DNA of 64,000 bases from Paraburkholderia largidicola. Lineage in GTDB: Bacteria; Pseudomonadota; Gammaproteobacteria; Burkholderiales; Burkholderiaceae. The notes under the pieces are model-generated. The model did not search any database. It was not told where the DNA came from and saw nothing but the letters and a program-made list of their open reading frames with translations. The stretch covers positions 186,001 through 250,000 of the forward strand of contig NZ_AP023176.1 in assembly GCF_013426895.1 (NCBI RefSeq), in the 5' to 3' direction. The position numbers and the translations under genes were made by a program. This document shows, one piece after another, positions 33,954 to 49,075 of the stretch. Within the stretch, counting starts at the first letter, position 1, and the number at the start of each line of letters is the position of its first letter.

Positions 33954-35723
33954 TCAAGGCAAATCGTTCATGCAGGCATCCTTGCGCGTCAGGCTATGTG
34001 AAGCGGCGTCATCCAGCTTACCCGCCATGTACTTCGCGACGCGCCATCCGAACACGATTGCCGGGCCCAACGTCGTGCCGGGTCCGGGATACGTGCCACG
34101 AAAGATCGAAGCGAGATCGTTGCCGCACGCGAAGAGTCCAGGTATCACGTTGCCGTTCACATCGAGCAGTTCGCCGTTCGCATTGCCGCTGAGTCCCGCA
34201 CTGCACGCGAGGTCGGCTGGCCACACGGTCACGGCGTAATACGGACCTTTACCCAACGGGCGGATGCATGGATTGGGCTTCTGCGCCGCGTCGCCATTGA
34301 ACCGGCTCATCGGGCTGGAACCGCGGCCGAACGCAGGATCGTTGCCCAACGCGGCATCGCGGTTGTAGGTCTCGACGGTGCGCGCAAGCCCCGCCGCGTC
34401 TACGTTCAACTTCGCCGCCAACGCGGCCAGCGTATCGCCTTTGATCAGATACCCGGCACGCTCGAACGCTGCAACGCGCGCGCGGCTTCGTCCCGGCATC
34501 AGCAGGCCCAGACCATAGTCGCGGATAAAGTCAGCATCGACGATCAGATGCGCTGGTACGCTTGGACCATGCCCGTCGTCGCGCAACATGCCCATCACGA
34601 AGTCGTGATAGGAACCGGATTCGTTGACGAACCGCTCGCCCCGGCTGTTCACCGCGATGAGCCCCGGCTTCGCGCGATCCAGGATGATGTGCGGCCACAC
34701 GCTATCGTCGCCGCCGGGCGAACGGCGGATCGAGCAGGGCATCCAGAGCCCGGGGCTGTCGCCGCCGTTTTCGAGTCGCGCGTCGACGGCGAGTGCGCTG
34801 CCGACACCGTCGCCCGTGTGGGTGTCGGGCGACAGCGACAGCGGTTGAGCGGCAGCCGGAAACAGCTGTTTGCGCAACGCGGGATGCCGGGTGACGCCAC
34901 CCGTGGCGAGCACGACGCCGCGACGCGCACCAATGCGCCGCTGCTTGCCGTCACGCGATCCGACCACGGCGCCCGTCACGCGACCTTGTTCGCGAACCAG
35001 TTCGACGAGCGGTGTTTCGAAGCGCACGGCCACGCCGCGCTTGCGCAGGCTGTAGAAAAGGCGGGCGGCGAGCGCGTTGCCCATCACGAGCTGCGTGCCG
35101 CGCGGAAAACGCATGCGGTCGATTACATAACGGCCGACCACTTCGACGGTGCGCCTGAAATTGCTGAACGATCCGAACGGACTGAGCAGCGCGCCGAGGT
35201 CGCTGCGATTGACCATCATCCCGCCCAGACCCATGAACTCCTTGCGCGGCGGTCGTACGCGCGCGAAATCCTTGTCCAGCACGCGCGCGTCGAACGGCAG
35301 TGGCGCGAGCGCGCGGCCGCCGAATGCCGCGCCGGGCCCCGTCACATAGTCCGGATGCGCGGCCGCTGCGACGAACTTCACGTCGCTGATGCGCTGCAAT
35401 TCATCGATGGCGAGCGGACCGCTTTGCAGGAAGGCTTCGCGCGCTTCGTCGCCGCCGCGTTCGCCGACTACCGATTGCAGAAAGCGGCGCGCGTCGTCGA
35501 CGCTGTCGGGCACGCCCGCATCGACGCTCAATTGCGTGCCCGGCACCCAGGTCGTGCCGCCCGACGTCGACGTGATGCCGCCGACCGCGTCGGTCTTTTC
35601 GCACAGGAGCACGTCGAGGCCCTCATGATGCGCGATCAACGCGGCCGTCATGCCTGCCGCGCCCGCGCCGAACACGAGCACGTCGACTTCTTCGTCCCAA
35701 TGGATACTGCCGCCTGAATTCAT
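33954..35723 (-). CDS. FAD-dependent dehydrogenase of the ketosteroid dehydrogenase/fumarate reductase type
   Basis: This 589-residue flavoprotein has the dinucleotide motif VFGAGAAGMTAALIAHHEGLD, the substrate-cap segment and the C-terminal FAD contact GLFACGNDLASIFRGTYPGPGTTLGPAIVFG, as in 3-ketosteroid delta-1-dehydrogenases. Such enzymes introduce a double bond next to a ring ketone. It ends a leftward operon of transporter, shikimate-dehydrogenase-like and SDR genes. A paralogue occurs at 44427-46172. Two such desaturases in one cluster would suit stepwise aromatisation of a cyclohexanone-type acid. The start has AAGGAGA. Confidence 0.88.
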   Translation of the reverse strand: MNSGGSIHWDEEVDVLVFGAGAAGMTAALIAHHEGLDVLLCEKTDAVGGITSTSGGTTWVPGTQLSVDAGVPDSVDDARRFLQSVVGERGGDEAREAFLQSGPLAIDELQRISDVKFVAAAAHPDYVTGPGAAFGGRALAPLPFDARVLDKDFARVRPPRKEFMGLGGMMVNRSDLGALLSPFGSFSNFRRTVEVVGRYVIDRMRFPRGTQLVMGNALAARLFYSLRKRGVAVRFETPLVELVREQGRVTGAVVGSRDGKQRRIGARRGVVLATGGVTRHPALRKQLFPAAAQPLSLSPDTHTGDGVGSALAVDARLENGGDSPGLWMPCSIRRSPGGDDSVWPHIILDRAKPGLIAVNSRGERFVNESGSYHDFVMGMLRDDGHGPSVPAHLIVDADFIRDYGLGLLMPGRSRARVAAFERAGYLIKGDTLAALAAKLNVDAAGLARTVETYNRDAALGNDPAFGRGSSPMSRFNGDAAQKPNPCIRPLGKGPYYAVTVWPADLACSAGLSGNANGELLDVNGNVIPGLFACGNDLASIFRGTYPGPGTTLGPAIVFGWRVAKYMAGKLDDAASHSLTRKDACMNDLP

Positions 35724-35781
35724 GTCCAATGTCTCCTTCGTTGCCTTGTCGGGTTGGTTGTGTCCGTCAGACGAACCGACG

Positions 35782-36531
35782 TCAATAAGTCGCGCGTCCG
35801 CCTGACAGATCGAAGGTCGCGCCCGTCGAAAACGAGCACTCACCCGATGCCAGCCACGCCGCCAGGCTCGCGACTTCGTCGGCTGTTCCCGCGCGCTGCA
35901 TCGGAATCTTTGCAAGACTCGCGGCGAGCGCGTCGGGGGTCATCTGTTGCAGCAACGGTGTCTCGATCACAGCGGGCGCGATGCAGTTCACGCGCACCGG
36001 CGTCAGCGCCAGTTCCTTGCCCATCGACTTCGTGAACGCGATCACGCCGGCTTTGGCTGCCGAATACGCGGACATCGACGGGTTGCCTTCCTTGCCCGCA
36101 ATCGACGCGAGATTGACGATGCGGCCAAAGCCCGCATCGAGCATGGGTTTGACGGCGGCGCGCGAGCACAGGAACACGCTGCGAAGGTTGACGTCGATGC
36201 AGCGCTGCCATGCGTCGAGCGCGCTGTCGGCGACAGTCGCGATCGGGCCGGTCGTGCCCGCGCTGTTGATCAGCACATGCAGCGCGCCGAAGCGTTCGAG
36301 CGTCGTGTCGAGCGCGGCCGCAACGGAGGCTTCGTTCGTCACGTCCACGTGCACGCCGATGGCTGCGTCGTCCTTGCCGTTGGAAAGCTTATCGGCGGCA
36401 TCGTGTGCGGCGCTTGCATCGAGATCCCACAGCGCGACGCGCATCCCGTCGCGTTGCAGGCGCGCCGCAATCGCTCGGCCGATCCCGCCCGCGCCGCCCG
36501 TGACGACGGCGACCCGCTGCGCCGCGTTCAT
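35782..36531 (-). CDS. Short-chain dehydrogenase/reductase
   Basis: This 249-residue SDR has TGGAGGIG (cofactor binding) near residues 11-18, the NSAG segment and the catalytic YSAAK with the upstream serine (NLASIAG). It oxidises or reduces a ring alcohol with NAD(P). Its ATG overlaps the stop of the shikimate-dehydrogenase-like gene by ATGA, and it lies 58 bases before the flavoprotein gene. A plausible role is converting a hydroxy-ring acid to the keto substrate of the flavoprotein. Confidence 0.93.
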   Translation of the reverse strand: MNAAQRVAVVTGGAGGIGRAIAARLQRDGMRVALWDLDASAAHDAADKLSNGKDDAAIGVHVDVTNEASVAAALDTTLERFGALHVLINSAGTTGPIATVADSALDAWQRCIDVNLRSVFLCSRAAVKPMLDAGFGRIVNLASIAGKEGNPSMSAYSAAKAGVIAFTKSMGKELALTPVRVNCIAPAVIETPLLQQMTPDALAASLAKIPMQRAGTADEVASLAAWLASGECSFSTGATFDLSGGRATY

Positions 36532-37370
36532 GCGTTGGCGTCGAGCAGAAACTCGACCATGCGATCGCACACGCGCGCGAACATCTGCGTGCCCGTCACG
36601 GTCGTGCAACCGCGTGCGCGTGCCGCTTCGATGAACGGCGTGAGCGGCGGCTTCGTGACGACGTCTCCGACAAAGGTGGAGGCGGGCAGGCGCGATACGT
36701 CGATGGGCAGCGGATCGTCGGTGCGCATGCCCATTGGCGATGCGTTGACGACGACGTCGAACGAACCGGCTTCGACGTCGGCTGCCGCCACGTGCACGGC
36801 GCCGCGTTGCATCGCGGCGAGCCGGGTCACGAGCGATTGAGTGCGCGCCGTATCGTTGTCACGCACATCGAGAGAAGCAACGCCCGCGCTGACGAGCGCA
36901 TGGCCGATGGCCGAGCCCGCGCCGCCTGCGCCGATCAGCAGCGCGTGTTTGCCATGCAGATCGCAGCCCGCATCTTCCAGCGCCGCGACGAAGCCGGTGC
37001 CGTCGAACATACCGCCATGCCAGCCGCCATCGGCCGTGCGCCGCAGCGTGTTCACCGCGCCGAGAAACGCGGCCTCATCCGACAGACTCGAGCAGAAGGC
37101 GGTCGCGCTGAACTTGTGCGGCACGGTGATGATCACGCCGTCGACATTCCGCATTGGCGCGACACCCGCGAAGAATGCCGCGAGGTCGTCCGGCGCGACA
37201 TGCGCGGGCACCACGAGCGCGTCGCGTCCTGCTTCGCGCATTGCCGCCGTCACGCCTTTGGGCGAGCGCACCTGTGCAATGGGATCGCCGACAATGAAAT
37301 ACACGCGCGTCGCGCCGCTGAGTCCCTCGTCGAGCGATACGGCGACTTCGGTTGCAGTCGATTGGGTCAT
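36528..37370 (-). CDS. Shikimate dehydrogenase-family oxidoreductase
   Basis: This 280-residue protein has the AroE fold: substrate domain with GVIITVPHK (catalytic lysine) and FLGAVNTL, then a cofactor motif GAGGAGSAIGHAL. The canonical shikimate-binding SxSPxxHN is replaced by AQVRSPKGVTAAM, and the catalytic aspartate segment reads MFDGTGFVAAL. It is therefore probably a quinate/shikimate-like catabolic dehydrogenase rather than the biosynthetic AroE. Both ends overlap neighbours by ATGA, so it is tightly coupled to the transporter fusion and the SDR. Confidence 0.9.
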   Translation of the reverse strand: MTQSTATEVAVSLDEGLSGATRVYFIVGDPIAQVRSPKGVTAAMREAGRDALVVPAHVAPDDLAAFFAGVAPMRNVDGVIITVPHKFSATAFCSSLSDEAAFLGAVNTLRRTADGGWHGGMFDGTGFVAALEDAGCDLHGKHALLIGAGGAGSAIGHALVSAGVASLDVRDNDTARTQSLVTRLAAMQRGAVHVAAADVEAGSFDVVVNASPMGMRTDDPLPIDVSRLPASTFVGDVVTKPPLTPFIEAARARGCTTVTGTQMFARVCDRMVEFLLDANA

Positions 37371-39919
37371 GCTGTTTTCACCTCCAGAGTGGAACGGGCA
37401 TCGTCATGCACGATGCCGAGCAGTTTGGCCTGCGTCGCGCTGTCCTGAGCGAGCGCGTCAGCCGTGTTTTCATAGGCGACGCGGCCGTTGACCAGTACAT
37501 AGACGCGGTCGGCGATGGGCAACACCATATCCGCCTGATGTTCGACGATAACGACGCTCGCGCGTTCGCGCAGCTTGACGACGGCGTCGAGCACTTCCTG
37601 CACGACGGCAGGCGCAAGACCTTCAAACGGCTCGTCGAGCAGGATCGCTTTGGCGGGCGCCATCAACGCGCGCGCGATGGCCACCATCTGCCGCTCGCCG
37701 CCCGAAAGATGTTCGGCGCGCACGTCCTTGCGATTCGCGAGCCGAGGGAACAGCGCGTAAATCTCGTCGACGCTCGCGCCGCCCTTGCGCGCAGCGAGCC
37801 GCAAGTTCTCGTAGACGGTCAGATTCGGAAACAGGCGGCGGCCTTCGGGCACCATCGCGAGACCGAGCCGGTTGATCTCGTGCATGGGTCGCGTCGTGAT
37901 GTCGTGTCCGTCGAACATGATGTTGCCCGCGCTGATCTGCGCGACGCCCGTCGCCGCGCGCAACGCGGTCGTCTTGCCGACGCCGTTGCGTCCGAGAATT
38001 GCGATGACTTCCCCTTCGTGCAGCGTGAAATCGATGCCGTCGAGGATCGTGTTGCCCGCGTAGCCCGCCTTCACGTTGCGCAGTTGCAGAAGCACATTCC
38101 TGCTCGCCGGCGTGTCGCGCCGGTGCGTGACGCGTTGGGCGAGACGGGCATCGACGGGGCGCTGGCCCTTTGCGTGACCCATGTATGCCTCGATCACTTC
38201 AGGATGCGCTGCGACGTCGGCGGGCGAGCCGTCGGCGATCAGATGGCCGCGATGCAGCACGCTGACGCGGTCGGAGATCGTCAGCACACGGTCGATGTCA
38301 TGCTCGATCAACAGCACCGCGTGATGGTTCGCGAGTTCCCGAACGATGCGCGCGACGTTGGCGCGATCCGCTTCGGCCAGGCCCGCGAGCGGTTCGTCGA
38401 GCAGCAGCAGACGGGCCTGCGTCGCGAGCGACAACGCGATTTCGAGCAGCCGCTGTTCGCCGTGCGAAAGGCTTTCGCACGAATCCGCCGCGCGCTCGAC
38501 CAGGCCGACAGCCGAAAGCAGTGACCACGTTTGCGCGTTCTGCTTGTCAATAGTATGCGCGTCGTGCCACAAGCCGAGCCGTTCACGCTGCGCGGCCTGC
38601 ACGGCGACGCGCACGTTCTCGAACACGGTGAGGTTGCGAAACACGCTGAGAATCTGGAACGAGCGGCTCATGCCGAGCCGCACGCGGCGGAACATCGCGA
38701 GCCGCGTGACATCCTTGCCGTCGAACGTGATCGTGCCCGACGATGGCGGCAGCACGCCCGTCAGCATGTTGAAGAAGGTCGTCTTGCCCGCTCCATTTGG
38801 TCCGATGAAGCTGTGCAGTCGATACGGATAGACGTCGAGGTCGATCTTGTCGGCTGTCACGAGCGAACCGAATTGTTTCGACAGCCCGCGTACGCTGAGA
38901 ATCGGCGCATCCGGATTCATATCGATGCGGCTCGCGCGATACGGCGCGATCACTTCGGGGCGCGCGGGAATGGTGTCGCGCACGAGCGTCCAGCGCGGCC
39001 GGCGCAGCAGGCGTTGCGCAAGACCCTGAATGCCTTCGGGCGAGAAGAACGCGAACGCAATGATGATCGGGGCGAACATCAGCCACCAGTGTTCGGTGAG
39101 GCTGCTCAACTTGTCTTCGAGCAGGATGAACGCAATCGCACCCCACAACGGCCCGAGAAACTGGTGCACGCCGCCCAGGACGGTCATCAGCAGACTGTCG
39201 CCTGCATGCTCCCAACTGAGGTTGTTCGCATACGCGCCTTGCAGCATCAGGCACAGCAACCCGCCCGCGTAACCGATCACCGCCGCGGAGATCACGAACG
39301 CATACAGCTTCAGGCGGTACGTGTCGTAGCCGAGGCTCGCGGCACGCTGCTCGTTGTCGCGCAGCGCCTGCAACGCGCGCCCGAATGGCGCATGGACGAG
39401 ACGCCACAGGCCATAGGCGACGGCGATTACCGTGACGCAGGCGAACACATGAAAGCCCGTGGTCGTCGCGAAGGTTGGGCGCGGCACGTTTTGCAGGCCG
39501 TTCTCGCCGCCCGTCACGTCGGTCCACTTGAAGGCGATTTCGAAGGCGATCTGCGAGCAGGCGAGCGTGAGCAGCGAGAAATACAGCCCGCGCCGCTTGA
39601 GCACGATCGCGCCGATCAACGCGGCCATCGCGGCCGTGACTATCACGCTCGCGGCCAGCGCAACGATTTCGTTGCCGATCAGGCGTTGCAGCGAGATCGC
39701 GACCAGATACGTCGATGTGCCGAAGAACACCGAGGCGCCGAACGGCACGAGGCCCGTATAAGCGACCAGAAGATTAACGCCCATCCCGTAGAGCGTGTAG
39801 ATGGCGATCTGCGTCGCGCGTTCCAGCGGCGTGCCGCTCGCGGTCAGCGCGATCGACACGACGATGAGGCACATGGTGAGCAGCGCAACGGGGTGCCGGG
39901 TCAACAGTTTGATATTCAT
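37367..39919 (-). CDS. Branched-chain-type ABC transporter LivM-LivG-LivF triple fusion
   Basis: One 850-residue polypeptide joins three proteins usually encoded separately. Residues about 1-310 are a LivM permease with many membrane helices (GLYFSLLTLACSQIAFEIAF, GENGLQNVP). About 340-590 is a LivG ATPase with Walker A GPNGAGKTT (373-381), signature LSHGEQ and Walker B LLLLDEPLAGL. About 612-845 is a LivF ATPase with Walker A GRNGVGKTT, signature LSGGERQ and AILLDEPFEGL. All ATPase motifs look intact, so it should work with the adjacent LivH permease. No stop or frame break separates the parts. It overlaps both neighbours by ATGA. Confidence 0.93.
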   Translation of the reverse strand: MNIKLLTRHPVALLTMCLIVVSIALTASGTPLERATQIAIYTLYGMGVNLLVAYTGLVPFGASVFFGTSTYLVAISLQRLIGNEIVALAASVIVTAAMAALIGAIVLKRRGLYFSLLTLACSQIAFEIAFKWTDVTGGENGLQNVPRPTFATTTGFHVFACVTVIAVAYGLWRLVHAPFGRALQALRDNEQRAASLGYDTYRLKLYAFVISAAVIGYAGGLLCLMLQGAYANNLSWEHAGDSLLMTVLGGVHQFLGPLWGAIAFILLEDKLSSLTEHWWLMFAPIIIAFAFFSPEGIQGLAQRLLRRPRWTLVRDTIPARPEVIAPYRASRIDMNPDAPILSVRGLSKQFGSLVTADKIDLDVYPYRLHSFIGPNGAGKTTFFNMLTGVLPPSSGTITFDGKDVTRLAMFRRVRLGMSRSFQILSVFRNLTVFENVRVAVQAAQRERLGLWHDAHTIDKQNAQTWSLLSAVGLVERAADSCESLSHGEQRLLEIALSLATQARLLLLDEPLAGLAEADRANVARIVRELANHHAVLLIEHDIDRVLTISDRVSVLHRGHLIADGSPADVAAHPEVIEAYMGHAKGQRPVDARLAQRVTHRRDTPASRNVLLQLRNVKAGYAGNTILDGIDFTLHEGEVIAILGRNGVGKTTALRAATGVAQISAGNIMFDGHDITTRPMHEINRLGLAMVPEGRRLFPNLTVYENLRLAARKGGASVDEIYALFPRLANRKDVRAEHLSGGERQMVAIARALMAPAKAILLDEPFEGLAPAVVQEVLDAVVKLRERASVVIVEHQADMVLPIADRVYVLVNGRVAYENTADALAQDSATQAKLLGIVHDDARSTLEVKTA

Positions 39920-40785
39920 TCGAAGCGCTCCCAGCGTTCGCCGAACAACCCGCGCGGACGCACGAGCAACACGAGTGCCATCAGGACATACATCGCTACC
40001 GACGACCCTTCCGGAAAGAACTGCACGGCGAGCGCCGTCACCACGCCGACCAGCAGGCCCGCGACGACCGCGCCCGCAAACGAGCCCAGACCGCCGATCG
40101 TCACGATCACGAAGGCGGGCATCACGGCTGCCGTCGCCATGCTGGGCGTGACGGTGAGCAGCGGCGCGGCGAGCACGCCCGCGGCGCCCGCGAGCAATGC
40201 GCCGAGACCGAACGCGCCCGTCAGCACGCGCGGCAGATTGATGCCGAGCAGGCCCACCATCTCGGGGTCGCGGCTACCCGCGCGCAAGATGCGCCCATAG
40301 GGCGTGAACTTCATGAACCACCACAGCGCGAGCAGAATCGCGACCGTCGCGGCGAGCACGAACAGACGATACTTCGTGATGAGCAGCGGCCCATAGACGA
40401 GAAAGCCGCTGAGCGCCGCAGGCGGGCTGAACGGCAGGCCGCCCGCGCCCCACACCAGACGGATCAGCGCCGTCAGCAACAGCGACAGGGCGAACGTCAC
40501 GATCAGGCCGAGCAAAGGCTCCTTGCCGTAAAGCCGCCGGATGAAAATCACTTCGATCAGCATGCCCGCGAGCGCGACGAGGACGGGCGCGACGATCACC
40601 GCGGCCCAGCCGAACTGCGTCGACAGCGCGATCGCGAAGTACGCGCCAAGCGCGAACAGCGCGCCATGCGCGAAGTTGACGATGCCAAGCAGCCCGCAGA
40701 TGATCGACAGACCGATCGCGAGCAACACGTAGAGAAAGCCCAGCACCAACCCATTGGCGATCTGGGACAACACCATTTCTGCCAT
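39916..40785 (-). CDS. Branched-chain-type ABC transporter permease (LivH-like)
   Basis: This 289-residue inner-membrane permease has the LivH signature GLLGIVNFAHGALFALGAYFA near the N-terminus and the coupling segment GSRDPEMVGLLGINLPRVL. It pairs with the LivM part of the downstream fusion. The chosen start has GGAG eight bases upstream; a longer in-frame reading lacks support. It lies between the binding-protein gene (111-base gap) and the fusion gene (ATGA overlap). Confidence 0.93.
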   Translation of the reverse strand: MAEMVLSQIANGLVLGFLYVLLAIGLSIICGLLGIVNFAHGALFALGAYFAIALSTQFGWAAVIVAPVLVALAGMLIEVIFIRRLYGKEPLLGLIVTFALSLLLTALIRLVWGAGGLPFSPPAALSGFLVYGPLLITKYRLFVLAATVAILLALWWFMKFTPYGRILRAGSRDPEMVGLLGINLPRVLTGAFGLGALLAGAAGVLAAPLLTVTPSMATAAVMPAFVIVTIGGLGSFAGAVVAGLLVGVVTALAVQFFPEGSSVAMYVLMALVLLVRPRGLFGERWERFE

Positions 40786-40896
40786 GCCTGTACTCCAGCT
40801 GAATGCAGATAACCGCAGGACATTGCGGAACGGATGGAGCCGCTGCATGAGGTTCACGCAACGGCCCGCCGATGCCGCAGCAAGGTTCGCCGTGCT

Positions 40897-42189
40897 CTAC
40901 CGCGCAGCCATCGTGCAGCCGATTTCCTGTTTCGTGCCGTAAAGGCTGTCGAGTTCGGCAGGGTTCTGCGGCACGGCCGACACCTGGTTGAGCCAGTCCC
41001 ACTTGTCGGTGATGTGATCCTTCACCTTGAAGACCGTCCAGCGGCGCAACATCTGGTGATCCCACGGGCGGAAATAGGCAGGCCCGCTGCTGTCGCCGAA
41101 CTGCACGGTCTCCAGGCTCTGCACGATGTCCGGCCCGGATGTGCTCTTTGCCTGGTTGACACCCGCGAGCAGCGCGCGCGTCGTGAACCAGCCGATCCAC
41201 GCCTTGTCGGCGGGCGGCTTGCCGTACTTCGCCGTGTACTTCTTGATGAACGCGAGTTCTTCGGGCGAATGGCCCGGCGAACTGTAGTGCCACGGCTTGC
41301 CGTAGTAGCCGGTTGCCGCATCCACGTTGATCGACCACAGATCCGAATCGCCGATGATGGGACAGGCAACGGGGATCTTGTCCTTCATGCCCATTTCCGC
41401 GTACTGCTTGAGGAAGGTCGAGAGATCGCCGCCGGGCAGGCCGAGCAGCACGACATCGGGCTTCGACTGGCGAATCTTCAGGATGAACGAGCTGAAGTCG
41501 GTGGTGTTGAGCGGCGTCACATCCGCGCCCGCGATCGTGCCGCCCGACTGTTTCAGCAACTCGGACATCGAGCGCTGGATATCCTGCCCATACGCGTAGT
41601 TCGCGACGAGGAAGTGCCACTTCTTGCCGATCGCGAGCAGCGACGGCGCGAGCGCGCGGCACGTGACGGGCGTCGGACTGAGCACACGAAACGTGTACGG
41701 ATTGCAGCTGCTGCCCGTCAGCTCGCGCGCGGCGGCGTTCGGGGCGATATAGGGTGTCTTCGTGCGAGCCGCGACGGACGACATCGCCAGCGACGTGCCG
41801 CTATTCGTGCCGCCGATCACAGCGATGACCTTGTCCTGCTCGATCAGCTTCTGCATGTTCTGCTGCGCCGACTGGGGATTCGGCTCGTCGTACCAGACCA
41901 GATCCACGCGGCGGCCGCGCGCCTGGTTGTTCGCATCGTCGAGCGCCAGCTTCACGCCATTCGCGATCACTTCGCCCTGTTCGGTCCACACGCCTTGCTT
42001 GGCCATCAGCAGGCCGAGCTTGAGCGGCTGCTCGCCTTGCGCGCGCACGATCGCGGGCGCCGCCAGCACGGCCGCGCCGCTCGCGAGCGTCTTGCCCGCC
42101 GTGGCGAGCCATGCGCGCCGCGTCATGCCCGCGCTGTCAGGCGCACTCTGCGCTTCGTGGTGCTTGAGTTGTGTGTGTTCGTCCTTCAT
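40897..42189 (-). CDS. ABC transporter substrate-binding protein (LivK-like) with Tat-type signal
   Basis: This 430-residue periplasmic binding protein of the Peripla_BP_6 type has a twin-arginine signal (MTRRAWLATAGKTLASGAA, cleavage near IVRAQ), then LKLGLLMAKQGVWTEQG and AVIGGTNSGTSLAMSSVAARTKTPYI. It captures the cluster's substrate and delivers it to LivH and the LivMGF fusion. It is the first gene of the leftward six-gene operon. Its promoter region contains the TTGGAATAGTATTCAA dyad proposed as an IclR operator. Confidence 0.92.
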   Translation of the reverse strand: MKDEHTQLKHHEAQSAPDSAGMTRRAWLATAGKTLASGAAVLAAPAIVRAQGEQPLKLGLLMAKQGVWTEQGEVIANGVKLALDDANNQARGRRVDLVWYDEPNPQSAQQNMQKLIEQDKVIAVIGGTNSGTSLAMSSVAARTKTPYIAPNAAARELTGSSCNPYTFRVLSPTPVTCRALAPSLLAIGKKWHFLVANYAYGQDIQRSMSELLKQSGGTIAGADVTPLNTTDFSSFILKIRQSKPDVVLLGLPGGDLSTFLKQYAEMGMKDKIPVACPIIGDSDLWSINVDAATGYYGKPWHYSSPGHSPEELAFIKKYTAKYGKPPADKAWIGWFTTRALLAGVNQAKSTSGPDIVQSLETVQFGDSSGPAYFRPWDHQMLRRWTVFKVKDHITDKWDWLNQVSAVPQNPAELDSLYGTKQEIGCTMAAR

Positions 42190-42261
42190 GTCTCTCCGCT
42201 CCTGTCCGTATCCGTTCGCAAATTTTCGACAACCAAAACTTTTGATGAACTGTAGTTTGAA

Positions 42262-42277
42262 TTGGAATAGTATTCAA
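42262..42277. promoter_or_regulatory. Putative IclR operator in the divergent transporter/oxidoreductase promoter
   Basis: TTGGAATAGTATTCAA lies 73 bases upstream of the binding-protein start and 84 bases upstream of the Gfo/Idh gene. Its GAATA-G-TATTC core equals that of the palindrome at 44364-44386. One outer base pair is mismatched. Confidence 0.6.
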
Positions 42278-42361
42278 CAATTAAAGCATGTTTCATAGAA
42301 TCCGGGTATTCACCTGGAAGCCTCGAATAACCCTTGTGTTCAACCTGAGGAGATGAAGGAC

Positions 42362-43399
42362 ATGGCAAGGAGACGTTTGGCGGTGATCGGCGCGGGCGCG
42401 ATCGGACGGATGCACGTGGAACGGGCGCGGCTGCATCCACAGGCAGAGGTGGTGGCGATTGCGGACCCGTCGCCCGCCGCGCGCGAATTCGCGCGGCAGG
42501 AAGGGTTGCGCTGGTTTGCCGACTACACGCCGATGCTCGACGAAATACGTCCCGAAGGCGCGATCGTCGCGACACCGAACGCGACGCATGTCGACGTGGG
42601 CCTTGCATGCCTCGCGCGCGGCATTCCGGCGCTGATCGAAAAGCCCGTGGCCGATGACGTGGAAGCGGCGCAACAGTTGAGCCGCGCAGCCAGCGCAGCG
42701 AACGTGCCGCTGCTGGTGGGGCATCATCGGCGGCACAACCCGATCCTGCGGCGCGCGAAGGAAATCGTCGTGTCCGGGCGGCTGGGCACGCCCGTTACCG
42801 CGAACGCGCTCGCGACGTTCTACAAGCCCGACGCCTATTTCGACGTCGAATGGCGGCGGCGCGCGGGCGGCGGGCCCGTGCTGATCAATCTGATCCACGA
42901 CATCGACATCATGCGGTTTCTACTCGGCGAGATCGTCGAGGTGCAGGCGCTGACGTCGAATGCCGTGCGGGGTTTCGACGTCGAGGATACGGCCGCCGTG
43001 TTGCTGCGCTTCGCTAGCGGCGCGCTGGGCACGCTCGCCGTTTCGGACTGCGCGGCCGCACCTTGGAACTGGGACCTTGCGGCGGGCGAAGCGGCGCACT
43101 ATCCGCGCCAGCAGGTGAACACGCATTTTCTGATCGGCACCGACGCGTCGCTGACGCTGCCGCAACTCGACGTATGGGAATACCGCGCGCGCAAAGGCTG
43201 GCACGAACCGTTGACCGTCGAGCGCAGCACGCCGCACAGCGCCGATCCGTATCACGAGCAGTTGCGCCACTTCGCCGCTGTGATCGCGCGTGAGGAGGCG
43301 CCGCTGTGTTCGGTCGAGGACGCCGCGCGCACGCTGGCCGCGACGCTCGCCGTGCATCGGGCCGTGGCGGCGCGCGCGCCCGTCGCGCCCGCGCTTTGA
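42362..43399 (+). CDS. Gfo/Idh/MocA-family oxidoreductase
   Basis: This 345-residue NAD(P)-dependent dehydrogenase has the N-terminal GAGAIGRMHVE Rossmann motif, the EKP motif with the catalytic lysine (ALIEKPVAD) and a C-terminal domain with GPVLINLIHDIDIMRFL carrying the conserved histidine. The family oxidises hydroxyl groups on sugars, inositols and ring acids. The second ATG is chosen because AAGGA and GAGGAG precede it; another ATG lies nine bases upstream. It is divergent from the transport operon across the proposed IclR site. Confidence 0.9.
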   Translation: MARRRLAVIGAGAIGRMHVERARLHPQAEVVAIADPSPAAREFARQEGLRWFADYTPMLDEIRPEGAIVATPNATHVDVGLACLARGIPALIEKPVADDVEAAQQLSRAASAANVPLLVGHHRRHNPILRRAKEIVVSGRLGTPVTANALATFYKPDAYFDVEWRRRAGGGPVLINLIHDIDIMRFLLGEIVEVQALTSNAVRGFDVEDTAAVLLRFASGALGTLAVSDCAAAPWNWDLAAGEAAHYPRQQVNTHFLIGTDASLTLPQLDVWEYRARKGWHEPLTVERSTPHSADPYHEQLRHFAAVIAREEAPLCSVEDAARTLAATLAVHRAVAARAPVAPAL

Positions 43400-43412
43400 G
43401 GTCGAATTATTG

Positions 43413-44321
43413 TCAGTGATGTGCGGCGTGCGTGTGGCGGTAGAACGCTACCGTCTGCCGCAGACCTGCTTCGAGCGAGGTCTGCGGCAGACCCGGCAAC
43501 AGGTGCTCCAGGGCGGGATCGTGCGGAAACGCAGTCGCGATGGGCAGCGCAGCACCCGCGGCATCGATGCGCGCGCCCGGCACGATCGTGCCAATTCCGT
43601 CGATCACCGTTTGCACGGAAGCGATCTCTCCTGCGAGCGTGAACGCGTGGGCGCCTTCCACATCGCGCAGCAAGGCCGCCTCGTAGGCGGCGGCGACATC
43701 GTCGGCGTAGACGAAACCTGTCGAACCCGTGAACGGCATCGTGTAGCGCTCGCCACGTGCGGCCGCGCGGCACGCAAGGCTCGGACCGGCGCTCGATCCC
43801 GTCTCGCGTCCCGCGCCATAGACGACCAGCGGGCGAAAGCCGACGCTCGCGATGCCGTGGTCGTTCCAGTACGCGCGCGCCGAGCCTTCGCAGGCGAGCT
43901 TGAATGCGCCGTAGTGCGTCTGCGGAAACGGGGTCGCGCCGTCGTCGGGGCCGAACACGCCAGCGCTGCTTGCGTAGAGCACACGCTGCAGACCCGCCGC
44001 GCGTGCCGCGTCGAAGACGTTCAGCGTGCCGATCAGATTGATCTGCGCGCCGCGCACGGGGTTGGCCGCGCAATCCGGCGTGAGAATGCCCGCGAGATGG
44101 ATCACGGCATCGCAGCCGTCCAGCGCGCGTGCGACGTCGGCGGCTTGCGCGATATCGCCCGTTCGCCATTGGACGGTTTCCGCCTGCTCCGGCGACAGCG
44201 CATGCAGCAACTGCGGCTTCGCCTGCAGATCGAACGCAACGCATTCGATGCCGCTGGCAAGCAGCCGCCGCATGATCCACGCGCCCAGAAAGCCGCTACC
44301 ACCCGTTACCAGTACCCGCAT
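43413..44321 (-). CDS. NAD-dependent epimerase/dehydratase (extended SDR)
   Basis: This 302-residue protein has the extended-SDR cofactor motif TGGSGFLGAWIMRRLL (residues 6-21) and IHLAGILTPD. The usual YxxxK motif appears as HYGAFK, with the serine in YASSAGVFG. It probably acts on a ring or sugar hydroxyl. The start has GAGGAG and faces the flavoprotein gene across a divergent promoter that holds a 23-base palindrome. It converges on the Gfo/Idh gene with a 13-base gap. Confidence 0.9.
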   Translation of the reverse strand: MRVLVTGGSGFLGAWIMRRLLASGIECVAFDLQAKPQLLHALSPEQAETVQWRTGDIAQAADVARALDGCDAVIHLAGILTPDCAANPVRGAQINLIGTLNVFDAARAAGLQRVLYASSAGVFGPDDGATPFPQTHYGAFKLACEGSARAYWNDHGIASVGFRPLVVYGAGRETGSSAGPSLACRAAARGERYTMPFTGSTGFVYADDVAAAYEAALLRDVEGAHAFTLAGEIASVQTVIDGIGTIVPGARIDAAGAALPIATAFPHDPALEHLLPGLPQTSLEAGLRQTVAFYRHTHAAHH

Positions 44322-44363
44322 GTCGTTTCTCCTCGTCGTCACAAAAACTTTGCAAGATCGCAA

Positions 44364-44386
44364 TTTGTGGAATAGTATTCCACAAA
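44364..44386. promoter_or_regulatory. Perfect 23-bp palindrome, putative IclR operator
   Basis: Eleven-base arms flank a central G; the core is TGGAATAGTATTCCA. It lies 43-65 bases before the epimerase start and 41-63 bases before the flavoprotein start, so one protein bound here could control both. Confidence 0.75.
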
Positions 44387-44426
44387 GAAAGTTAGTTCCA
44401 TAGTTTCTGAAAGAGCAGAGCCGAAG

Positions 44427-46172
44427 ATGAAGCGTGAAGCGATACTCGAATGCGATGTGCTGGTGCTGGGCTCCGGTGCGGGCGGGCTGTCGGCTGCCGT
44501 GACGGCGGCGGCGCAGGGCTTGCACGTCATGGTTGCGGAGAAGGAAGACGTATTCGGCGGCACGACCGCGTGGTCGGGCGGATGGATGTGGATTCCGCGT
44601 AATCCGCTGGCGACGCGCGCAGGCATCTGCGAGGACATCGACGCGCCGCGCACGTATCTGAAGAGCGAACTCGGCGCGCAGTTCGATGCGGACAAGGCGG
44701 ACGCATTGCTGGAGCGCGGCCCCGAAATGATCGAGTTCTTCGAGCAGCACACGGCGATGCGCTTCGTCGACGGCAATCGCGTTCCCGATTTCCATACCAC
44801 GCCCGGCGCGGCAACGGGTGGCCGCTCGGTGTGTGCGATGCCGTTCGACGGCAGGGAGCTCGGTCCGTTGGTCCACAAGCTGCGCGAGCCACTGTCGGTG
44901 ATGACGATCAAGGGCATGGCGCTGGCGTCGGGGCAGGACCTCGCGCACTTCTATCGCGCGACGCGCTCCGTGAAATCCGCGCTTTACGTCACGCGGCGGC
45001 TGGCTGCGTTCGCGTGGCAGAAACTGCGTCACGGACGCTCGATGCATCTCGTCAACGGCAATGCGCTGGTGGCGCGGCTGTTGAAGTCGGCGGCAGATCG
45101 GAATGTGGATCTGCGCACGCGCGCCAAGGCGATTGGTTTGCTGCGCGACGACGCGCGCGTCACGGGCGCGCGGGTCGAGATCGACGGCGTGGTGCACGAA
45201 GTGCGGGCGTCGCGCGGCGTGGTGCTCGCATGCGGCGGTTTTCCGCATGATGTCGCCCGGCGCGCGCGCACGTTTGCTTACACGCCATCGGGCAAGGAAC
45301 ACTGGTCGGCGGCACCGCGCGCGAATACGGGTGACGGCATTCGCCTGGGCGAATCGATTGGTGGGCGTTTCAATGATGCGCTCGATGCGCCCGCAGCCTG
45401 GGCGCCCGTTTCGCTCGTGCGGCAACGCGGCGGCGATGTGGCGTTTGCGCATCTGATCGAACGCGCGAAGCCGGGTGTGATTGCCGTCACGCGCGCGGGG
45501 CAGCGCTTCGTCAACGAGGCGTCGTCCTATCACGACTTCATGTCGGCGTTGCTCGGTACGACGCGGCGCGGTGAAGCGGTCTGCGCCTGGCTGATCTGCG
45601 ATCACCGTTTTCAGCGCCGCTATGGGCTCGGCTTTTCGAAGCCGTTTCCGTTCCCGGTTTCGAGCTATGTGCGCTCGGGTTATCTGAAGCGGGGCGCGAC
45701 GCTCGCTGAACTTGCCGCCGTGTGCGGTATCGATGCGCAGGGCCTGGAGAACACGGTTGCCGCCTACAACACGTATGCGAAAGACGGTTTCGATCCGCAG
45801 TTTCACAAAGGTTCGACGCCATACAACCGCGTGCAGGGCGACCCGACGCACGAGCCGAATCCCTGTCTCGCGCCAATCGAAAACGGACCGTTCTATGCCG
45901 TCAAACTGCTGCCGGGCAGCCTCGGCACGTTCGCGGGCCTCGCCACCGATGCGAACGCCCGCGTGCTCGACGGCCACGACCACGCAATTCCCGGCCTCTA
46001 CGCGGTCGGCAACGACAGCGCGAGCATGATGGGCGGCTGCTATCCGAGCGGCGGCATCACACTCGGCCCGGCGATGACATTCGGCTATCTCGCGGGACTT
46101 TCTCTTGCCGGTGCAGCGCAACGCTCGACGCGCACCGGTTCTCCCAGTTCACATCAAGGAACCACGCAATGA
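44427..46172 (+). CDS. FAD-dependent dehydrogenase of the ketosteroid dehydrogenase/fumarate reductase type (second copy)
   Basis: This 581-residue flavoprotein is paralogous to the one at 33954-35723. It has VLVLGSGAGGLSAAVTAAAQGL, EDVFGGTTAWSGGWMWIPRN, RFVNEASSYHDFM and the terminal FAD contact GLYAVGNDSASMMGGCYPSGGITLGPAMTFG. It presumably desaturates a ring ketone, perhaps the second of two consecutive steps. It leads a rightward operon; its stop overlaps the NIPSNAP start by ATGA. Confidence 0.88.
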   Translation: MKREAILECDVLVLGSGAGGLSAAVTAAAQGLHVMVAEKEDVFGGTTAWSGGWMWIPRNPLATRAGICEDIDAPRTYLKSELGAQFDADKADALLERGPEMIEFFEQHTAMRFVDGNRVPDFHTTPGAATGGRSVCAMPFDGRELGPLVHKLREPLSVMTIKGMALASGQDLAHFYRATRSVKSALYVTRRLAAFAWQKLRHGRSMHLVNGNALVARLLKSAADRNVDLRTRAKAIGLLRDDARVTGARVEIDGVVHEVRASRGVVLACGGFPHDVARRARTFAYTPSGKEHWSAAPRANTGDGIRLGESIGGRFNDALDAPAAWAPVSLVRQRGGDVAFAHLIERAKPGVIAVTRAGQRFVNEASSYHDFMSALLGTTRRGEAVCAWLICDHRFQRRYGLGFSKPFPFPVSSYVRSGYLKRGATLAELAAVCGIDAQGLENTVAAYNTYAKDGFDPQFHKGSTPYNRVQGDPTHEPNPCLAPIENGPFYAVKLLPGSLGTFAGLATDANARVLDGHDHAIPGLYAVGNDSASMMGGCYPSGGITLGPAMTFGYLAGLSLAGAAQRSTRTGSPSSHQGTTQ

Positions 46173-46780
46173 CACTCTATGACACAGTCACGCTCACGGT
46201 GAAAATCGGCACGAACGCGCAGGTGTTCGAAAGCATCAAGGCGAGCGGCAATCAGCCCGGCTCGACGTTGCTCGGCTGCTGGTATTCGGACATCGGCGCG
46301 CTTGGGAAGGTGATGGTGCTGCGCGGCTTCGAATCGGAAGCGGCGCTCGTCAACGAGCGCAAGCGTCTGCTGCTGGAAGGCAATCCGTTCGGCTGCGGCG
46401 AGTTCGTCGTGGACGTCAAGGTGGAGAGCTATGCGCTCTTTCCGTTCCTGCCGCCTGTCGAACCGGCCGTGCACGGCGGCATCTACGAGATGCGTGTCTA
46501 TGGCACGAAGCTCGCGAGCCTGCAGCATACGATCGACGCATGGGAAAAGGCCGTGCCCGAGCGCACCAAGCGTTCCCCGCTGATCGGCGCGATGTATTCG
46601 CTCGACGGCACCGTGCCGCGCTTTCTGAACATCTGGCCGTATGCGGGTGTCGACGAACGCTCGCGCATTCGCGCGGAAGCGGTGAAGGACGGCATCTGGC
46701 CGCCGAAGGGCGGACCCGCGCATCTGACGACCATGGAGTCGACGATCTACGTGCCCGCGCCGTTTTCGCCGCTGCGCTGA
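46169..46780 (+). CDS. NIPSNAP-family protein
   Basis: This 203-residue protein has two ferredoxin-like halves of the NIPSNAP type (YDTVTLTVKIGTNAQVFESIK; then IYEMRVYGTKLASLQHTIDAWEKAVPERTKRSPLIG). Such small dimeric domains often sit in catabolic operons with unclear chemistry and may bind or tautomerise intermediates. It is coupled to the upstream flavoprotein gene by an ATGA overlap and followed 41 bases later by the TIM-barrel gene. Confidence 0.85.
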   Translation: MTLYDTVTLTVKIGTNAQVFESIKASGNQPGSTLLGCWYSDIGALGKVMVLRGFESEAALVNERKRLLLEGNPFGCGEFVVDVKVESYALFPFLPPVEPAVHGGIYEMRVYGTKLASLQHTIDAWEKAVPERTKRSPLIGAMYSLDGTVPRFLNIWPYAGVDERSRIRAEAVKDGIWPPKGGPAHLTTMESTIYVPAPFSPLR

Positions 46781-46821
46781 ACGCTGTACGCAATACACGA
46801 TACGAACTGGATAAAGGAGAC

Positions 46822-47661
46822 ATGATGACTCAGGCTCATGCGCGCGCGCTGTCGCTGTCGGCGCTGACCGTGCTGGAACTGACGCCGCCGCAGATGGTGC
46901 AATGCGCGGCTGATGCGGGCTACGACTTCGTCGGCCTGCGTCTGCTGCCTGCGACCGATCACGAAGTGCGGCATGAAATCGTCGGCGATACCGCGCTCAA
47001 GCGCGAGACGCTCGCGGTGTTGAAGGACACGGGCATGCGCGTGCTCGATGTCGAGATCGTGCGGCTGAAGCCCGATACCGATGTGGCGTCGTACAAGCCG
47101 ATGTTCGAAACAGCCGCCGAACTCGGCGCGCGCTATGTGCTCGTGGCGGGCAACGATCCCGACGAAGCGCGCATGGCCGACCGGCTCGGCAAGCTGTGCG
47201 ACATCGCGGCGCCGCTCGGCCTCACGCCTTCGCTCGAGCCGATGCCGTGGACCGACGTGAAGAACATCGCGCAGGGCGCGCGCATCGTCGAAGCGAGCGG
47301 CAAGCGCAACACGGGTCTCATCATCGATCCGATTCACTTCGACCGTGCAGCCGATTCGCTCGATGCATTGCGCGCACTGCCGCGCGAATACTTCGGCTAC
47401 GTGCAGTTCTGCGACGCGCCCGCCGAGCGTCCCACCGATCTCGATACGCTGCTGTTCCAGGCGCGTTGCGAACGGATGATTCCGGGCGAAGGCGGCCTCG
47501 ATCTCGCTGGGATTCTGCGGGCGTTGCCGGCGCATTTGCCTGTGAGCGTCGAAGTGCCGACGCAGCAGTGGGCGAAGACCACCCGCGCCGTCGATCGTGC
47601 GCGCCGCCTGCGTGAGGCGACGCGGGCGGTGATCGAACAGGCCTACGCGACAGCGACGTGA
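46822..47661 (+). CDS. TIM-barrel sugar-phosphate isomerase/epimerase-family protein (possible dehydroshikimate-dehydratase-like)
   Basis: This 279-residue xylose-isomerase-like TIM barrel has candidate metal ligands in DVEIVRLKPD, LEPMPWTDV (E), GLIIDPIHFDR (D, H), and SVEVPTQQW (E). The family includes 3-dehydroshikimate dehydratases (AsbF/QuiC type) as well as inosose dehydratases. With a shikimate-dehydrogenase homologue and two ring desaturases in the same cluster, a dehydratase or isomerase acting on a hydroaromatic intermediate is a reasonable guess. The ribosome site is AAAGGAGA. Confidence 0.8.
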   Translation: MMTQAHARALSLSALTVLELTPPQMVQCAADAGYDFVGLRLLPATDHEVRHEIVGDTALKRETLAVLKDTGMRVLDVEIVRLKPDTDVASYKPMFETAAELGARYVLVAGNDPDEARMADRLGKLCDIAAPLGLTPSLEPMPWTDVKNIAQGARIVEASGKRNTGLIIDPIHFDRAADSLDALRALPREYFGYVQFCDAPAERPTDLDTLLFQARCERMIPGEGGLDLAGILRALPAHLPVSVEVPTQQWAKTTRAVDRARRLREATRAVIEQAYATAT

Positions 47662-47716
47662 GCGCCTCGCATTGATTGTTAGCTGCCGCCAATGAAGGAC
47701 ATGCGAAACTGCTTGA

Positions 47717-47731
47717 ATTCCACTATGGAAT
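47717..47731. promoter_or_regulatory. Putative IclR operator before the IclR gene
   Basis: ATTCCACTATGGAAT is a perfect dyad (six-base arms, three-base spacer) lying 43-57 bases before the IclR start. It uses the same TGGAAT/ATTCCA half-sites as the palindrome at 44364-44386, but in the opposite order. Confidence 0.6.
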
Positions 47732-47773
47732 CATGTTCTCATTTGCACGATACAGTTTAAATGAGAGTGCACT

Positions 47774-48628
47774 ATGGCAGGCAATCTGGAGCGGGCGCTG
47801 GCGGTGCTCGAACTGCTGGCGAAGAACGGCGGCCGCATGCCGCTCGCGGCCATCGCCGACACGCTGAACATTCCGCGCAGCGGCACGCACCGTCTGCTGT
47901 CGATGCTGATCGACGAAGGTTTCGTGCGTCAGGACGAGGACCACGGCGAGTACATGCTCGCGCTGAAGCTGGTGTCGCTGGCGCTGATCTATCTGTCGAC
48001 GAGTGGCGTGTCCGATATTTCGCAGCCGGTGCTCGACCGGCTTGCGGAAAGTTCGGGTGAACTGGCGCGCCTGGGCGTCGTCGAGGACGACCACATTACG
48101 TTTGTCGGCAAGGCGCAGGGCGCGAAGTCGGGGCTGCGTTATGACCCGGACATGGGTAGCCAGCCGCCGCTGCATTGCACGGCAAGCGGGCAGGCGTGGC
48201 TTTCGACGCTGTCCGACGAACGTGCCATCGAGCTGGTGTCGAAACAGGGCGGCCTCGGGCCGAAATCGCTCAATGCGCCGCGTGCGCCGAAGACCATTCA
48301 ACAATTCCTCAAGGATCTGAACGGCGCGCGGCAACGCGGCTATGGCGTGGCGATCGAGACGTACGAGGCGGGCATGACATCGATTGCCGCGCCCGTGCGC
48401 AATCCCGTCACCGACGAGGTGGTGGGCATCGTGAGTCTTGCGGGGCCGACCAGCCGGTTGCCGGAGTCGCGCCTGAAGGAACTCGCGCCTTCGCTGTTGA
48501 GCGCGGCGGCGGACATGGGCGCGGCGACGCTCAGTTCGCCGCTTTTCAAGCGCGCAATTGCCGAGGCGGCACCAGCGGCGCCGGAGCCCGCCGCGAAGAA
48601 GCGCGGACGGGCTGGGGCAAAGGTGTAA
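47774..48628 (+). CDS. IclR-family transcriptional regulator
   Basis: This 284-residue protein has an N-terminal IclR winged helix (ALAVLELLAKNGGRMPLAAIADTLNIPRSGTHRLLSML, residues 8-45) and a C-terminal effector domain (DPDMGSQPPLHCTASGQAWLS, GMTSIAAPVRNP). The C-terminus ends in a basic, alanine-rich tail (KKRGRAGAKV). It closes the 34-48 kb cluster and is probably its regulator, since TGGAAT-type dyads occur in its own promoter and in the two divergent promoter regions. Confidence 0.93.
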   Translation: MAGNLERALAVLELLAKNGGRMPLAAIADTLNIPRSGTHRLLSMLIDEGFVRQDEDHGEYMLALKLVSLALIYLSTSGVSDISQPVLDRLAESSGELARLGVVEDDHITFVGKAQGAKSGLRYDPDMGSQPPLHCTASGQAWLSTLSDERAIELVSKQGGLGPKSLNAPRAPKTIQQFLKDLNGARQRGYGVAIETYEAGMTSIAAPVRNPVTDEVVGIVSLAGPTSRLPESRLKELAPSLLSAAADMGAATLSSPLFKRAIAEAAPAAPEPAAKKRGRAGAKV

Positions 48629-48870: not shown

Positions 48871-49075
48871 ACCCGAGGCAGTTTTTCTCAATAGACCTGC
48901 CGTGACGGGCTGTCACAATTTCAGTGCGTTACAAACAAACGAAAAGAAGGATGGTCCACACCCGGCCGGCGACTGTTTCCAGTTCGCCAGCAAGACAGGT
49001 CGTGGCCCAGACTACGGAGACAGCGACGATCATGAGATACAGGACCGCAATATGTGCTTGCGCGGCGTTGGTGCA
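48855..49075 (+). repeat. Duplicated promoter-leader-signal-peptide segment, copy 1
   Basis: The operator, the block GTTTTTCTCAAT, the leader, the GGAGACAG ribosome region and the first coding bases (AGGACCGCAAT, GCTTGCGCGGCG) are also found, diverged, at 52728-52955. The downstream mature proteins are unrelated (porin here, TctC there). Confidence 0.6.

Follow-up and report, generated by a model that had tools for sequence, protein, structure and literature searches.

A conserved gene module with a predicted IclR operator and a probable role in hydroaromatic acid catabolism

Organization of the locus

The window is a 64,000-nucleotide stretch of a Paraburkholderia genome (G000, contig C3, positions 186001 to 250000; the genome comprises 9,470,940 bases in 5 contigs). 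Pfam and NCBIfam assignments place twelve genes between window positions 33954 and 48628. With moderate confidence, we interpret these genes as a catabolic module under IclR control, which would take up a ring acid of hydroaromatic or alicyclic type and aromatize it. The locus is 99.0% identical across its full 14,675 bases to a plasmid record of Paraburkholderia largidicola, in which the same twelve genes bear generic annotation names. Gene content, conservation, conserved palindromes and catalytic residues were computed directly.

The minus strand encodes, from 42189 down to 33954, a periplasmic substrate-binding protein (Peripla_BP_6, 430 aa, 40897–42189), a HAAT-type ABC permease (289 aa, 39916–40785), a fusion of a HAAT-type permease with two ATPase domains (850 aa, 37367–39919), a RifI-class shikimate dehydrogenase homolog (AROE, 280 aa, 36528–37370), a short-chain dehydrogenase/reductase (SDR, 249 aa, 35782–36531) and a KstD-like FAD-dependent ketone desaturase (FAD1, PF00890, 589 aa, 33954–35723). 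Homologous permease/ATPase fusions occur in Rhizobium sullae and Paracoccus methylovorus. The plus strand carries a Gfo/Idh/MocA dehydrogenase (Gfo, 42353–43399, possibly starting at 42383), the run FAD2–NIPSNAP–TIM (44427–47661) and an IclR-family regulator (284 aa, 47774–48628). FAD2 is a second KstD-like desaturase (581 aa, 44427–46172) that scores above the PRK06134 subfamily cut-off; it is followed by a NIPSNAP-family protein (203 aa, 46169–46780) and a xylose isomerase-like TIM-barrel protein (TIM, 279 aa, 46822–47661). There are two divergent promoter regions, with genes departing in four directions. Overlaps of 4 bases at four gene junctions, including that of FAD2 and NIPSNAP, point to an operon-like arrangement.

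Every gene named in an earlier sequence-only reading is found where that reading put it. One strand is corrected: the NAD-dependent epimerase/dehydratase-family protein (302 aa) lies on the minus strand at 43413–44321 and converges on Gfo. The longest-open-reading-frame coordinates of FAD1, TIM and the epimerase are likewise replaced, the start of FAD1 being set at 35723 and that of TIM near 46822. The plus-strand frame at 43290–44375 has no Pfam or NCBIfam match and is rejected as a gene.

Conservation of the module

The cluster is real and conserved. Its core consists of AROE, FAD1, FAD2, NIPSNAP, TIM and IclR; Gfo, the epimerase, the SDR and the importer are optional. This core recurs in Betaproteobacteria and on plasmids of Rhizobiaceae and Paracoccaceae. 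Five partner genes, FAD1, FAD2, NIPSNAP, TIM and IclR, were scored in the flanks of 65 AROE loci: four or all five are found in 46 loci, one to three in 9 (several of them truncated at a contig end) and none in 10. By gene, FAD1 and FAD2 are each present in 51 loci, TIM in 50, NIPSNAP in 47, IclR in 40, the epimerase in 31, Gfo in 25, the substrate-binding protein in 13, the permease and the fused transporter in 11 each, and the SDR in 7 (at ≥60% identity). These counts use identity thresholds, the FAD1 figure pools both FAD1 subtypes, and several flanks stop before IclR.

Of 144 genomes of the genus, our own included, 32 encode NIPSNAP and 40 encode AROE. Both are present in 31 genomes, with the pair lying within 15 kb in 30; in the remaining case, it falls on two consecutively numbered contigs of a 770-contig assembly. 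One genome has NIPSNAP only and nine have AROE only (Fisher p = 2.7e-22, uncorrected for kinship). At the level of the order, 27 of 300 genomes contain a NIPSNAP match. FAD2 and TIM lie close to each of the five matches above 50% identity, one of them in our own genome, and AROE is within the fetched stretch in four of the five. No partner is found within the 1.5-kb flanks of the other 22 matches, nor at 20 kb in the one genome extended that far (G119). NIPSNAP is therefore rejected as an exclusive marker of the module, because homologs occur without it. The co-occurrence in other genomes on which the sequence-only reading had staked its case thus holds for the core.

Complete cores are carried on plasmids of Diaphorobacter, Paracoccus alcaliphilus, R. 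sullae, Limimaricola and Rhizobium ACO-34A. The R. sullae plasmid has homologs of all twelve genes together (the SDR at 30% identity only), and the order substrate-binding protein–permease–fused transporter–AROE–SDR is identical to that in the window. AROE matches occur in 52 plasmid records, and the 12 examined comprise five annotated with all or part of the module, one unannotated record with AROE, FAD2 and TIM matches, and six with AROE but without the module. NIPSNAP matches occur in 25 plasmid records; of the six examined, three contain the module and three do not. In P. methylovorus, the core is split between two parts of one plasmid. The FAD2–NIPSNAP–TIM part is immediately followed by pcaF and paa genes (L130, 11569–18609), an arrangement that could reflect either a chance neighborhood or a downstream route.

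A conserved palindrome and shared control

Both divergent regions contain a palindrome of the type TGGAATAnTATTCCA. The site at 44365–44385, between the epimerase and FAD2, reads TTGTGGAATAGTATTCCACAA and is perfect except at its center. A near-copy, AATTGGAATAGTATTCAACAA, lies at 42260–42280 between the substrate-binding protein and Gfo, and it too recurs in relatives. With up to two mismatches allowed, TGGAATAnTATTCCA yields 112 sites in the 65 related loci, 111 of them outside called genes, compared with 0 to 3 for each of 30 control palindromes built from permuted half-sites. The sites are distributed over 52 of the 65 loci. Where FAD2 was called, 48 of 49 loci have a site, versus 4 of 16 where it was not; the 10 loci in which AROE has none of the five partners contain no site.

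A looser form, TGGAAT-N3-ATTCCA with at most one mismatch, was matched against 18 loci picked for distance or origin: 12 from outside the 65, one being the near-identical P. largidicola record, and 6 of the most distant within. It is present in 14 of these, including 4 of 6 alphaproteobacterial loci; each of 30 permuted forms occurs in 0 to 2 of the same 18.

The weight of the case for shared control comes from these relatives, given 112 sites against 0 to 3 for the permuted palindromes. Within our own genome the palindrome occurs at five places with up to three mismatches, the reversed control pattern also gives five, and 11 of 100 shuffles of the window yield two or more matches. The single-genome count is consequently not significant, and the genome-wide search was not used as proof of a regulon.

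An IclR protein and a conserved palindrome ahead of the genes to be controlled are thus both present, so that the single IclR regulon proposed earlier stands as a prediction. The regulator would bind the palindromes at 42260–42280 and 44365–44385 and control the adjoining transcription units, presumably in response to an effector. Upstream of IclR, within 47662–47773, ATTCCACTATGGAAT contains the operator half-sites in outward order and is possibly an autoregulatory site.

Flavoproteins and NIPSNAP

FAD1 and FAD2 both belong by their residues to the KstD-type ketone desaturases, as had been surmised. The equivalents of Tyr318, Tyr487 and Gly491, which we take to be functional residues of KstD1, are kept in all 15 aligned flavoproteins (14 from clusters), with positions mapped by hand from 4c3x; in FAD1 an equivalent of Tyr119 is identified as well. 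The two proteins are distinct. All 13 tree loci that encode both contribute one member to each of two supported clades, one being the FAD1 clade of the window protein, in a tree for which, as for that of AROE, the program warns of long branches meeting.

The kept catalytic residues, together with the fact that the closest solved relatives are ketosteroid dehydrogenases, would also suit a literal reading as 3-ketosteroid dehydrogenases in steroid or terpenoid ring degradation. Scores of 481.3 and 421.9 bits fall well short of the 789 required by the KstD equivalog model, however, and no family of steroid side-chain or ring-cleavage enzymes appears in the assignments of the twelve products. A steroid role is extremely unlikely, and we reject it on the KstD scores.

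The flavoproteins also resemble models of the chc pathway, which aromatizes cyclohexanecarboxylate. FAD2 and FAD1 score 526.8 and 401.8 bits on ChcC2 (cut-off 900) and 340.6 and 273.1 bits on ChcC1 (cut-off 1000). The chc pathway oxidizes an alcohol and then uses two successive desaturases to reach 4-hydroxybenzoate (PMC9795900). The sequence-only reading corresponds to a chc-like route for simple hydroxy- or oxocyclohexanecarboxylates: the SDR would oxidize the alcohol, FAD1 and FAD2 would desaturate the ring twice to hydroxybenzoate, and AROE, TIM, Gfo and the epimerase would be helpers. The SDR does score 195.5 of 350 bits on ChcB2 and 167.4 of 400 on ChcB1. Yet every protein lies below its chc cut-off, no P450 is found by Pfam among the twelve products, and the SDR is optional whereas AROE and TIM are core. 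Our own genome also has a cluster on C2 near 1.59 Mb that is at least an equal chc candidate, with a flavoprotein scoring 572.9 bits on ChcC2. These points render a chc-like role for the window cluster rather unlikely. The C2 cluster (L105, about 1588000–1593000) encodes this FAD2-like flavoprotein, a 112-aa NIPSNAP protein, an SDR and a PcaK-like symporter, and is possibly a hydroxycyclohexanecarboxylate cluster; a similar set adjoins the main cluster in another locus (L007).

One relative has a natural FAD2–NIPSNAP fusion of 802 aa (L054, 5553–7961), which suggests joint action of the two proteins. From this fusion and the gene order, our guess is that NIPSNAP assists FAD2. The family is large (2226 proteins among 8000 scored) and is not tied to one pathway. 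A homolog of the 203-aa protein adjoins an alpha-hydroxy acid oxidase gene on pCAR1 (L126, 7001–7618), and another lies in a CoA-type cluster of Cupriavidus (L128, 8001–8615).

Dehydrogenases

AROE is a member of the shikimate dehydrogenase family, with a PF08501 score of 61.9 bits (cut-off 27) and aligned catalytic Lys, Asn and Asp residues. It differs from AroE and YdiB proper in lacking the SxS motif, which presumably binds the substrate carboxylate; QVRSP stands where the canonical AroE of the same genome has HSKSP. The closest solved relative by sequence is PDB 4k28, a distant match (147 bits over 248 residues) with the common motif QV[KR]SP. We take this entry to be RifI2 of Pseudomonas putida, whose natural substrate has, to our knowledge, not been established.

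RifI-type dehydrogenases serve the biosynthesis of 3-amino-5-hydroxybenzoate (AHBA), and the motif change shared with 4k28 raises the question of amino- or otherwise modified shikimate analogs as substrates. AROE also falls in a wider tree group with a Streptomyces homolog encoded beside a polyketide synthase and a class II DAHP synthase. This Streptomyces protein nevertheless lies outside the supported cluster group, which does include a QuiC-linked protein of Rhizobium NXC14, and neither a deaminase nor a transaminase is present among the twelve products. We regard such a route as very unlikely.

The best NCBIfam model for Gfo is inositol 2-dehydrogenase, at 149.4 bits of the 355 required for the IolG equivalog. 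Gfo and the epimerase are present in only 25 and 31 of the 65 loci and are therefore optional, which speaks against a role in central steps. In the NCBIfam scan, no named chc or qui equivalog model is matched above its cut-off by either flavoprotein, the SDR, AROE or TIM.

The TIM-barrel protein

Residues Arg81, Glu139, Asp169, His172, Gln195, Arg215, Arg218 and Glu244 of TIM are invariant in 20 of 20 TIM proteins. In alignment, TIM and two QuiC-type proteins have in common an Arg, Glu, Asp-x-x-His, Gln, Arg, Glu set, which we take to be the active site of QuiC. The only NCBIfam match is likewise QuiC, at 41.4 of 1200 bits, a strict cut-off missed even by full-length QuiC-type comparison proteins (684.1, 630.2 and 893.2 bits). 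The predicted model has a mean pLDDT (predicted local distance difference test) of 90.9, but in the fold search QuiC-type structures tie with IolI, and no row separates QuiC, IolI and Lmo2234. The modeled fold thus does not appear to distinguish a dehydratase from an isomerase.

This tie, and the inositol 2-dehydrogenase match of Gfo, would be expected if the substrate were a cyclitol of the inositol type and not an acid: Gfo or AROE would form an inosose, TIM would isomerize or dehydrate it in the manner of IolI or IolE, and the flavoproteins would oxidize it further. An inositol monophosphatase-family gene inside the R. sullae cluster (L112, 3219–4052) and transporters without acid specificity in some relatives fit the same scheme. 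Gfo, though, is optional (25 of 65 loci), and TIM has VQ..DAP, as do QuiC-type proteins, where IolI has YHIDD (the IolI printout is offset by one), a stretch presumably containing a functional residue of IolI. Several replacement transporters come from organic-acid families, and the CoA-transferase and acyl-CoA dehydrogenase of four distant relatives require a carboxylate. A cyclitol pathway is accordingly unlikely.

Because TIM carries the QuiC-like residue set, a dehydration or isomerization probably belongs in the route, and two desaturations alone probably do not describe it. We infer from the presence of such a protein in the core that the substrate would be a polyhydroxylated acid rather than plain cyclohexanecarboxylate. 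Of the route proposed previously, by oxidation to a ketone and two desaturations, the shared control stands and the substrate class probably does too, whereas the chemistry was incomplete.

Transporters, neighboring genes and the substrate class

A dedicated importer is supported, and its replacements in relatives are informative, even if these transporters of acid families mostly score below the cut-offs of their models. A PcaK-like symporter replaces or joins the ABC importer in 10 loci of one cluster (L017 was scanned) and in L098, scoring 402 and 387.7 bits against the AAHS (aromatic-acid symporter) subfamily (cut-off 418.55). L009, which was scanned, has beside the operator an MHS protein that matches the shikimate transporter model without reaching its cut-off, and L011 is similar. 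Parts of Tct carboxylate transporters take this place, or are added, in other relatives.

Neighboring genes point in the same direction. Four distant Burkholderiales loci (L054, L056, L061 and L064) have a CoA-transferase and an acyl-CoA dehydrogenase beside module genes; those of L064 are 40% identical to Escherichia coli YdiF and 30% to YdiO, respectively, which are encoded in the order ydiB-aroD-ydiF-ydiO. In P. caribensis, a related AROE is accompanied by a CoA-transferase 44% identical to YdiF. In P. alcaliphilus the module has TctABC, a second AroE and a QuiC-type protein as neighbors; in Rhizobium NXC14, genes for a QuiC-type protein and a HAAT importer accompany an AROE of the cluster group. 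The genome under study encodes a pcaH product above cut-off.

Taken together, the transporters, CoA-transferases and QuiC-type neighbors suggest that the substrate is, on balance, a carboxylated hydroaromatic or alicyclic ring, in line with the class proposed from sequence before. Against this stand other transporters. A SulP-family protein lies at the cluster in 17 loci, the MFS protein of L097 scores above the PRK05122 cut-off and otherwise matches an arabinose transporter, and that of Diaphorobacter is of undecided type. AROE-only loci also exist. We keep them as a caveat and not as evidence against the module. Solo copies from three of the 10 loci of this kind were placed in the tree, where they group within the cluster copies.

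In Candidatus Burkholderia humilis (L051), AROE has neither partners nor operator within a 20.8-kb stretch. A further locus of our own genome (L106, C4 about 354000–360000) combines an AROE homolog (35%) and a TIM homolog (32%) with an MFS transporter and a porin, so that the AROE–TIM pairing recurs without flavoproteins. Downstream of IclR in the window, a porin gene (48924–50170) is split over two frames. The near-identical P. largidicola record has a single porin coding sequence, and the split may be either a strain frameshift or a sequencing error.

Proposed route and comparison with known systems

In the reading we favor, the importer would take up a cyclohexanecarboxylic acid with a saturated, hydroxylated ring, most likely a member of the shikimate/quinate family such as an acid of the dihydroshikimate type. 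AROE would oxidize a ring hydroxyl to the ketone with NAD+, and the SDR or Gfo might serve other stereoisomers. FAD1 and FAD2 would then desaturate the ring beside the ketone, and TIM would dehydrate or isomerize the hydroxy-ketone as QuiC does 3-dehydroshikimate, the order of these steps being provisional. NIPSNAP would act alongside FAD2 and might deal with the enone that FAD2 forms. Genes located elsewhere would then take the resulting hydroxybenzoate through the protocatechuate (beta-ketoadipate) pathway.

Quinate and shikimate give rise to reduced hydroaromatic acids, whose recovery by aerobic soil bacteria is, as far as we know, poorly mapped. The hosts of the module are plant- and soil-associated bacteria. 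No description of this conserved, putatively catabolic gene set was found in the literature searched by title and start of abstract, where coverage of subscription journals is sparse. The analysis suggests a likely catabolic role for flavoproteins annotated only as "FAD-dependent oxidoreductase", for RifI-class shikimate dehydrogenases and for one NIPSNAP protein. The desaturases and the IclR switch could serve biocatalysis and sensors, and the conserved operator and small core make the module directly testable.

Among known systems, the E. coli ydiB-aroD-ydiF-ydiO genes, for which we know of no proven function, encode, like the four distant Burkholderiales loci, a dehydrogenase of the AroE family together with an acyl-CoA dehydrogenase and a CoA-transferase of the YdiF type. 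The E. coli genes differ in that no KstD-type flavoprotein or NIPSNAP is found in the stretch examined, and the window cluster for its part has no CoA-transferase. The chc pathway of Sinomonas cyclohexanicum (Yamamoto et al. 2021, as cited in PMC9795900) likewise converts an alcohol to a ring ketone and applies two successive desaturases, and FAD1 and FAD2 resemble the ChcC models. Unlike chc, the window cluster has no P450 (ChcA), and an AROE-type dehydrogenase, a QuiC/IolI-type TIM and NIPSNAP form part of its core.

The qui systems, which lead from quinate or shikimate to protocatechuate via QuiC, share with the module an AroE-family dehydrogenase and a TIM-barrel protein with the QuiC active-site set; a HAAT importer accompanies the qui-type genes of Rhizobium NXC14, and qui-type and module loci adjoin in P. 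alcaliphilus. The window cluster differs by having no 3-dehydroquinate dehydratase, by a TIM without the C-terminal domain of QuiC, and by its two additional flavoprotein desaturases and NIPSNAP, with a full-length QuiC-type protein encoded elsewhere in the genome. We tentatively raise the possibility that bacteria have, in addition to qui and chc, a third route by which hydroaromatic acids enter metabolism. Such a route would join RifI-class oxidation of ring-saturated acids of the shikimate/quinate family (dihydroshikimate type) to a non-redundant KstD-type pair with NIPSNAP and to dehydration by a small QuiC-like TIM, and would yield protocatechuate, or gallate if FAD2 acts on 3-dehydroshikimate. 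Its genes, some of them plasmid-borne, would be spread through Beta- and Alphaproteobacteria and governed by a single conserved IclR operator.

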